A DNA stretch of 64,000 nt from Armatimonadota bacterium (GTDB lineage Bacteria; Armatimonadota; UBA5829; DSUL01), in the NCBI GenBank assembly GCA_025998755.1, contig AP024674.1:1416162-1480161 (forward strand), given 5' to 3'. The notes under the pieces are model-generated. The model was not told the DNA's origin. It was given only the letters and a program-made list of their open reading frames with translations, and ran no database searches. The position numbers and the translations under genes are program-made. Positions 14,226-56,012 of the stretch are shown in pieces (within the stretch, counting starts at the first letter, position 1; each line of letters starts with the position of its first letter).

Positions 14226-14311
14226 TTCGCCTCCACGCGCGCTCAGGCCAGTCCTGCTGCCCCTTGCTAATACTGCCTGACTACCGCTTACCCATCTCCC
14301 CCGCTTTACGT

Positions 14312-14350
14312 TGGTCGAGTAGCGCGGCGTCAGCCGCGCGTATCGAGACC
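14312..14350 (+). repeat. REP-like palindromic repeat, copy 1
   Basis: 39-nt element whose core GCGCGGC-GTCA-GCCGCGC is a perfect 7-bp stem. It matches 35 of 39 positions with the inverted copy at 42157-42195 and shares its two ends with a degenerate copy at 55698-55736. It lies in the 325-nt gap between the convergent prepilin-like gene and cysteine desulfurase. A second hairpin (GCCGCCC-AAGGC-GGGCGGC, 14378-14396) follows; otherwise the gap is empty. Confidence 0.65.
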
Positions 14351-14486
14351 ACCACCGCAGGGAGTGGTTTCAACTGGGCCGCCCAAGGCGGGCGGCTCAG
14401 TCACCGGAGGGTGAGTTCGGCGAGCAGATACCTGGAACTCTCACGGTTCCGATGAATGTCCAGCAGGAGGAACGGGATGGGAGAGT

Positions 14487-41979: not shown

Positions 41980-42156
41980 CGCCAGGGTCTCCCTGCGCCG
42001 ATTGAAGCAGAGTATAGCACACGCCAGGAAAGGGAATCCGGCCAGGCTCGCGGAGACCCATCAGCGGATCGCCGCCGCGGCGGAGCCGCCCGGAGAAGCC
42101 CGCTCCTGCTGAGACACCGGCCGGACCCCGGGAGTGCAAACCGCTCAGCAAAATGC

Positions 42157-42195
42157 GGTCTCGATACGTACGGCTGACGCCGCACTACTGGACCA
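42157..42195 (-). repeat. REP-like palindromic repeat, copy 2 (inverted)
   Basis: Reverse complement of this stretch matches the element at 14312-14350 at 35 of 39 positions, including the TCAG-type loop and both outer arms. The core stem GTGCGGC/GCCGTAC has one mismatch. It lies in the 368-nt gap between the lyase and the aldo/keto reductase, which start in opposite directions. Confidence 0.65.
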
Positions 42196-42279
42196 CCAGA
42201 AGTCCGCGATGGCGCACCCGGTGATCATACCCGACAATACCCGCCGGCTTCGTCTGCCTTACCCGCGGTGTCGCAAGGC

Positions 42280-55609: not shown

Positions 55610-55697
55610 CACAGCGCCGGAGGCCGCGACAGGTCCCGGGCAGGAGGGAGCTCGCCAGGCGGCCGCGTCTCCGGACTGATGCTCCATTTGAACCAGA

Positions 55698-55736
55698 TTG
55701 GTCGGGCGGCACGCCGCAGGTGCGCGTATCAAGGCC
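55698..55736 (+). repeat. Degenerate REP-like repeat, copy 3
   Basis: Begins TTGGTCGGG and ends GCGCGTATCAAGGCC, against TTGGTCGAG and GCGCGTATCGAGACC in copy 1, with a different hairpin core (GCGGC-AC-GCCGC). It lies in the 403-nt gap between the UbiD gene and mqnE. The remainder of the gap shows only a weak ACCACAG/CTGTGGT stem and no gene. Confidence 0.4.
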
Positions 55737-56012
55737 CATTCCCGTGGTCGGCGGCTTCGGCTCCCACGCCATAGGCGGGCGGCCCAACCACAGAGGGAGA
55801 AGCGTTCGGGGACTGTGGTTCTGGAACACCAAAGGCCGACAACCCGATACTTGCCGCGCGGGCCACAGGGACGCGCGTCTTGTGAGGCTGGCTTCCTGCA
55901 AATGTGTGGCTATAAGGCAGCAGCGTGGGCTAAGATGGAGGTGATAGAGCCCGCGCGGGTCCGGCCGTGGCCGACCCTCTGACGAGCCGACAGGAGCTCA
56001 CCACTGAAGACC

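Follow-up and report, generated by a model that had tools for sequence, protein, structure and literature searches.

Di Nocera et al. (2013; PMC3733652) describe short palindromic REPs that occur together with RAYTs, carry a GTAG tag and lie between genes, often as inverted pairs. REPINs are units of ca. 100 bp in which two REPs face each other across a short spacer (PMC3116915). Another type of REP carries a CGTC tag. According to the 2013 survey (PMC3733652), no transposase genes are associated with the CGTC repeats, CGTC-1 of the Neisseriae is dRS3, and A. lipoferum and S. meliloti are listed; GIY is not mentioned in the text. No paper linking GIY-YIG with REP, REPIN or dRS3 was found in a search whose scope left out preprints and most subscription journals. 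The repeats analysed here probably belong to a REP family that is partnered by a GIY-YIG endonuclease and not by a RAYT, and would be its ORF-less form.

Paired hairpins in the window and its genome

The window, i.e. the whole stretch of 64,000 nucleotides analysed here (G000:C1:1416162-1480161), belongs to a genome of 3.29 Mb (G000) that is a single contig and 98.95% complete. The original prediction placed three copies of a dispersed, REP-like element of 39 nt in it. Copy 1 does match copy 2, read as its reverse complement, at 35 of 39 positions (90% identity over 39 nt), and the siting of all three copies between genes was borne out by our own codon-usage gene caller, with copy 1 in a convergent, copy 2 in a divergent and copy 3 in a tandem gene pair. 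The family is real, but the 39 nt are only about one third of a larger unit of ca. 105 bp that contains two REPs. In this unit, arm A (5' GGTCGAGTAG, 7-bp stem, GTATCGAGACC 3') is followed by a spacer of ca. 12 nt and by arm B, which is an inverted and diverged REP (GGTTGAG, stem, TCGAAACC); the full unit reads CTACGnTGGTCGAGTAG-stem-GTATCGAGACCAC, spacer, GTGGTTTCGACTCG-stem-CGGCTCAACCACCGTAG. Two models were used, the covariance model R1, built from 20 exact copies, and the pair model R2, built from 20 copies with the three of the window excluded. The features of the window are as follows.

14306 to 14352, plus strand: arm A (REP) of copy 1, TACGnTGGTCGAGTAG - stem-loop - GTATCGAGACCAC, with exact arms
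14364 to 14410, minus strand: arm B of copy 1, a diverged inverted REP (...GGCTCAGTCACCGG), from the R2 pair model
14415 to 14438, plus strand: tentative, degenerate tail hairpin module of copy 1 (GTTCGGCG..CTGGAAC), matched by eye to GTTCCGGGAACAAGTTCCCGGAACACC of other copies
42099 to 42142, plus strand: arm B of copy 2, strongly degenerate, from the R2 pair model
42155 to 42201, minus strand: arm A of copy 2 (R1 49.3 bits, E 4.3e-9 genome-wide)
55693 to 55738, plus strand: arm A of copy 3, degenerate (R1 19 bits, E 0.40 genome-wide)
55752 to 55797, minus strand: arm B of copy 3, from the R2 pair model

Arm A of copy 1 scored 75.2 bits with R1 (E 1.4e-17 in the window, 7.2e-16 genome-wide), and the full pair (14306-14410) scored 84.6 bits with R2 (E 1.4e-21). 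The DNA fold of this arm has a z of -3.4, and copy 1 as single-stranded DNA has a fold z of -5.3. The full pair of copy 2 (42099-42201, minus strand) reached 36.5 bits with R2 (E 4.1e-08). Copy 3 was at one stage doubted as a chance similarity, its arm A being weak as a single REP (R1 E 0.0079 within the window alone); this doubt was overturned by the R2 score of the full pair (55693-55797; 63.4 bits, E 1.2e-15). All three window copies are thus REP pairs, and copy 3 is therefore genuine as well. Proteins that we take to be prepilin-like are encoded near 3.3 and 13.4 kb of the window and would be in keeping with Armatimonadota.

Genome-wide, the pattern GGTCGAGTAGN{5,35}GTATCGAGACC gave 20 exact matches, against 0 for the reversed pattern. 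R1 gave 70 matches at E<=1, six of which are the second arm of an already counted pair, and 61 at E<=0.01; these counts are lower bounds because 150 of 4097 candidates were scored. The family thereby exceeds the roughly ten copies that had been set as the minimum, chance similarity is ruled out, and the label REP-like is apt for repeats that are short, palindromic, GTAG-tagged and intergenic. The three repeats of the window belong to a genome-wide family of paired DNA hairpins. Arm B was found behind 49 of 63 arm-A copies, compared with 2 of 63 upstream control stretches, so that, together with the R2 matches in the window, the arrangement of two inverted REPs at a short distance described for REPINs is present. 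The stems covary, with four pairs changed on both sides (20 cells) against 0 to 6 cells in slid controls, and a stretch like the tail hairpin GTTCCGGGAACAAGTTCCCGGAACACC follows 14 of 63 copies (control, 3 of 63). As expected of REPs, which are imperfect palindromes of 20-40 bp repeated many times outside genes, 57 of the 64 listed copies lie between called genes, while five lie inside genes and two at a locus edge; 21 are in convergent, 27 in tandem and 9 in divergent settings. The GTAG tag, which is unpaired in the GTAG superfamily, stands at the 5' stem end, although its last G pairs in the fold, and its column frequencies over 63 copies are G.84, T.83, A.86 and G.89, with seven right-arm rows dropped and the 20 exact copies carrying GTAG by choice of the pattern. 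In the alignment, the family does not have the terminal CGTC with AT at the stem start that marks CGTC REPs.

Most copies have TACG at the left end and CGTA at the right end. Three sites with a REP pair in the window's genome (L033, L029 and L048) were aligned with their orthologues in the sister genome G001 (L283, L282 and L281), where the element is absent; the flanking genes are ca. 90% identical and the whole intergenic stretch differs, and no clean insertion boundary or target duplication was seen at these three sites. At another site, where the window's genome has a single pair (L063), the REP pair of the sister genome (L274) is duplicated in tandem, the two being ca. 320 bp apart. The genes beside dense REP clusters in both genomes were, judging by eye from their translations, host genes, with no transposase among them.

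Two further features were observed. A mosaic of ca. 415 bp strings together several dispersed repeat types, in that a REP pair and the tail hairpin are followed by repeats of a second family (CCCCTCATCC..CTTCTCCC ... CCCTCTCCC..GGGAGAGGGTCTGGGTGAGGG) and by one more arm A, at the following sites.

L261:8306-8708, mosaic
L265:465-882, mosaic
L266:859-1260, mosaic
L274:5719-6111, mosaic
L263:10922-11213, mosaic

In addition, two genes that are related to each other have an arm A immediately behind their stop codon (G000:C1:2007664, L026, and 3248880, L046); the C-terminus of their products reads like what we assume to be a PEP-CTERM tail.

Distribution of the family and the RAYT question

Among 61 genomes (the window's own and its relatives), matches at E<=0.001 were found only in the window's genome (53) and in the sister genome (26), which together make up one genus; the other 59 are without the family. 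The sister genome carries the identical pair architecture. When named bacterial genomes were scanned with the arm pattern, at least 120 stretches matched, those listed being all from Actinomycetota or Chloroflexota as the records name them, and 50 of 50 genomes held exact arm copies (1 to 170 per genome by pattern, 0 for the control pattern). In these carriers from other phyla, the arms are fixed and the stem-loop varies between genomes; 41 of the 174 exact copies in the carrier loci listed have an inverted partner within ca. 75 bp. The patchy distribution, together with the identity of the arms, suggests horizontal transfer. The original prediction knew of no described family in this phylum. 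This holds insofar as no paper was found in the literature on Actinobacteria and Armatimonadetes, but the family is not confined to the phylum. The papers listed as matches to the arm sequences were judged, by title or abstract, to contain primers or to be unrelated.

Other arrangements were seen in individual carriers. Leifsonia has arrays of a minimal GGTTGAGCTTGTCGAAACC unit without the long stem (L097:1824-1959 and L334), the one at L334 surrounding a GIY-YIG gene of clade A (see below), and Agromyces bracchium (L147:2166-7517) has four inverted REP pairs at steps of ca. 1 kb and 3 kb.

By analogy with other phyla, the repeats had been expected to be mobilised by a RAYT (Y1) transposase. 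This was not supported, the Y1_Tnp domain being absent from the genome, from its sister and from 31 of 31 Actinomycetota carriers. A search for PF01797 gave nothing at E<=1 in the window's genome, with 10 of 14 control genomes positive, and none in the sister genome; a Y1 protein is present in 42 of 61 relatives. Of 47 carrier genomes, the 16 positive for PF01797 were the 16 Chloroflexota, as against 0 of 31 Actinomycetota (taxa as the records name them). Copies of the family lay within ca. 1.5 kb of Y1 genes at 0 of 20 loci of the phylum (L211-L230) and at 3 of 30 Chloroflexota carrier loci (L231-L260), and the ORFs of four Y1 loci resemble IS200 TnpA or Y1 proteins of other kinds. A RAYT partner flanked by REPs, as in the GTAG superfamily, was therefore not seen, and a RAYT as disseminator was rejected for the window's genome and the Actinomycetota carriers, which have no Y1 gene. 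As a separate observation, Chloroflexota have ORFs of ca. 400-590 aa with a Y1_Tnp domain (L243:1462-2685, L239-L241, L244, L245, L250 and L251), which in L243:1462-2685 is at the C-terminus.

A classical REPIN left behind after the genome lost its RAYT is accordingly improbable. The GTAG tag and the inverted-pair build do fit GTAG REPs and REPINs (PMC3733652), and Y1 proteins are common among the relatives; against this, such a loss would have to be set beside 31 Actinomycetota carriers devoid of Y1 and the scarcity of copies near the Y1 genes that do exist.

GIY-YIG genes between REPs

The starting point was a 94-aa GIY-YIG protein encoded between two REPs in Nocardioides (L177). PF01541 was searched in 48 carrier genomes, chosen for holding the REPs, and the loci read were the best match in each of 30 of the 48. 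In 23 of these 30 loci, the gene belongs to one clade (clade A, VGST motif) of stand-alone proteins of ca. 95 aa. When a GGT[CT]GAG core was required within 200 bp on each side of the gene, 20 of the 23 clade-A genes passed, compared with 39 of 609 genes in REP-selected loci (Fisher p 1.3e-19) and 3 of 134 neighbour and Y1-locus genes (Fisher p 3.1e-19), while 0 of 6 YhbQ-like genes and 0 of 1 other GIY gene of the same 30 loci did so. The arms of the family thus flank a clade-A gene in some carriers. Two of the failing genes (L321 and L334) are nevertheless flanked by REPs, one of which overlaps the gene end and one of which is near the limit; the third (L320) has REPs on one side only. A free inverted-repeat score over 200-bp flanks was at least 14 for 23 of 23 clade-A genes and for 14 of 552 genes in REP loci, and 20 was reached by 17 of 23 and by 4 of 552 controls, one of which is the L177 nuclease itself. 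At L317 and L337, the nuclease gene lies between two whole heterotypic pairs built as in the window.

The clade-A proteins have 27 invariant columns in common, and Y5, YVG, R25, H29 and E62, presumably the GIY-YIG catalytic positions, are invariant in 23 of 23. They match PF01541 (E 5.4e-20), no NCBIfam model matched them above its cut-off, and the nearest solved structures are the UPF0213 proteins PDB 1zg2 (E 8.7e-21) and 1ywl (E 1.6e-15). In the 120 carrier loci listed, 9 genes lay between two REPs, and no other family recurred among them; the genes adjoining REPs in these loci included no recurrent family beyond small groups, e.g. four HNH-type proteins. These four related proteins (L120:1898-3202, L126, L160 and L193), which we take for DUF222/HNH endonucleases, adjoin REPs, and one of them lies between two. 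In 9 of the 48 carriers, PF01541 occurs only in ORFs of at least ca. 580 aa, and three of these nine hold 85, 103 and 115 exact copies; the nuclease is therefore not needed for the upkeep of the REPs.

GIY-YIG genes of the phylum and of plasmid records were found by protein search alone, with the repeats disregarded. For a second clade (clade B, YxGVT), GTCAT[CT] cores were present on both sides in 15 of 22 genes of the phylum against 5 of 134 controls (p 6.9e-12) and in 7 of 12 plasmid records (p 2.2e-06), where neither p value is corrected for relatedness among the genes and some of the loci had already been viewed when the core rule was drawn up. By eye, 10 of the 12 plasmid loci have hairpin repeats on both sides, that of Photobacterium on one side and that of Rhizobium tumorigenes on none; at the Aeromonas plasmid locus, the two flanking repeats are in direct orientation. 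A small GIY-YIG gene lies between CGTC-type REPs in Azospirillum lipoferum (L374), in Neisseria (L377) and at L370 and L373. Examples of the repeats are given below.

Azospirillum lipoferum (L374), clade-B repeat: CGTCATCCCCGCGAAGGCGGGGATCCAG
Neisseria gonorrhoeae, clade-B repeat: CGTCATTCCCGCGCAGGCGGGAATCTAG

YxGST genes of the phylum had GGT[CT]GAG on both sides in 0 of 16 testable cases. By inverted-repeat score, three of them carry another REP type and the rest none; the other repeats at YxGST genes read CCTGAG..GTCGAAGG at both L293 and L353, and those of L351 (CCTCGAGTAG..GTAACGAGAGG) have an inner code common to the window's family. Across the GIY loci of the phylum, only 14 of 40 reached an inverted-repeat score of 14 (controls, 5 of 68). 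In a tree of 86 GIY-YIG proteins, which has few columns and many open forks, the flank label required 19 changes, compared with a mean of 37.8 after shuffling, and none of 200 shuffles was as low. Three genes of the phylum (L339, L301 and L341; family f27) fall inside the REP-linked clade A and have no adjoining REPs. No inverted repeat flanks the yazA gene of Bacillus subtilis.

These observations show that two GIY-YIG clades each lie between their own REP type in Actinomycetota, Chloroflexota, Pseudomonadota and the window's phylum. The putative REP code is GGTYGAG...TCGARACC for clade A and CGTCAT...ATCCA, including dRS3, for clade B. That the hairpins of the window flank a GIY-YIG gene in other bacteria suggests that a large class of bacterial repeats has a partner which has been overlooked.

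Proposed role of the nuclease and comparison with known systems

GIY-YIG enzymes hydrolyse DNA. To our knowledge, none is known as a transposase. From the association described above, we infer that the GIY-YIG nuclease may spread the REPs. In carriers, its gene sits between inverted REP copies as a RAYT does in a REPtron. In the most likely mechanism, the nuclease would recognise the REP pair in its folded state, along with the fixed outer arms, and cut by hydrolysis at the pair or at target sites, and host repair would copy the element into new places, ORF-less pairs moving in trans. The window's genus has probably either lost the nuclease or acquired the REPs alone, so that the copies would no longer multiply and would be decaying. 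It is possible, although we rate it somewhat below an even chance, that a second great class of bacterial REPs has its missing disseminators in stand-alone GIY-YIG nucleases, in parallel to RAYTs, with one REP code per clade and, unlike HUH and DDE enzymes, spread of ORF-less pairs by hydrolytic cutting and repair, and that the window's genus has an orphan population left by such a nuclease.

PF01541 matched only one 652-aa ORF (UvrC size) in the window's genome and nothing in the sister genome, which means that neither has a small GIY-YIG gene. The clade-A profile (A6, 23 nucleases), run here without a positive control of its own, gave nothing at E<=10 in these two genomes; it matches 44 of 291 genomes of the phylum. 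Nuclease and repeats were accordingly not found together in either genome of the genus. Because the genus is without the nuclease, the window copies look like orphaned, decaying remnants. Both arms are exact in 20 copies against 61 matches at E<=0.01, which fits decay, though active families also vary.

The main rival explanation, unlikely in our view, is that the GIY-YIG gene homes as a parasite into REPs that are already there and that something else spreads. If it inserted into the spacer of a pair, the outcome would likewise be REP, ORF and inverted REP; the REPs thrive in the nine carriers that have no short GIY-YIG ORF; and insertion of an IS into REPs is already on record (PMC1525189). 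However, no other disseminator was found, Y1 being absent from the 31 Actinomycetota carriers and both genomes of the genus and no other family recurring between two REPs, and the nucleases of L317 and L337 are flanked by whole pairs, not halves. A DDE-transposase MITE that duplicates a TA target and has the ends nTACG...CGTAn is very improbable: TACG and CGTA do end most copies, but the arms are hairpins in their own right, each with ends that are asymmetric, and none of the three orthologous sites offered a clean empty site to show the duplication. Least probable of all is an element with a host function (terminator or mRNA stabiliser) kept by selection, for which the strong fold (z -5.3) and the convergent setting of 21 of the 64 listed copies speak, since there is no T-run and since absence from 59 of 61 relatives and identical arms in distant lineages fit a mobile element better; the copies could still have a secondary host role alongside mobility.

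The partnership of the REPs with a GIY-YIG endonuclease would matter in that this nuclease is unrelated to RAYT and is not HUH. If the association is causal, a partner is named for some of the commonest dispersed bacterial repeats, and their movement becomes testable in the laboratory.

Compared with GTAG-tagged REPs as presented in PMC3733652, the window's family is likewise a short, GTAG-tagged, intergenic palindrome often found as inverted pairs, but it has longer fixed outer arms (GGTCGA...TCGAGACC) and, with no RAYT here or in the Actinomycetota carriers, its apparent partner is GIY-YIG. It shares with REPINs (PMC3116915) the two inverted REPs, the short spacer, the length of ca. 100 bp and, for the window's family, a putative movement of the unit in trans; unlike REPINs, its arms are heterotypic and it has no RAYT. 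The nuclease has its family and length in common with the stand-alone GIY-YIG proteins of the UPF0213/YhbQ type (PDB 1zg2, 1ywl), but 0 of 6 YhbQ-like genes of the same carriers are flanked by REPs, unlike clade A. CGTC-tagged REPs, including the dRS3 of Neisseria (PMC3733652), were found in this analysis to bracket a small GIY-YIG gene as well, and they differ from the window's family in their CGTC tag (GTCATCC..GGAT) and in the GIY-YIG clade between them.
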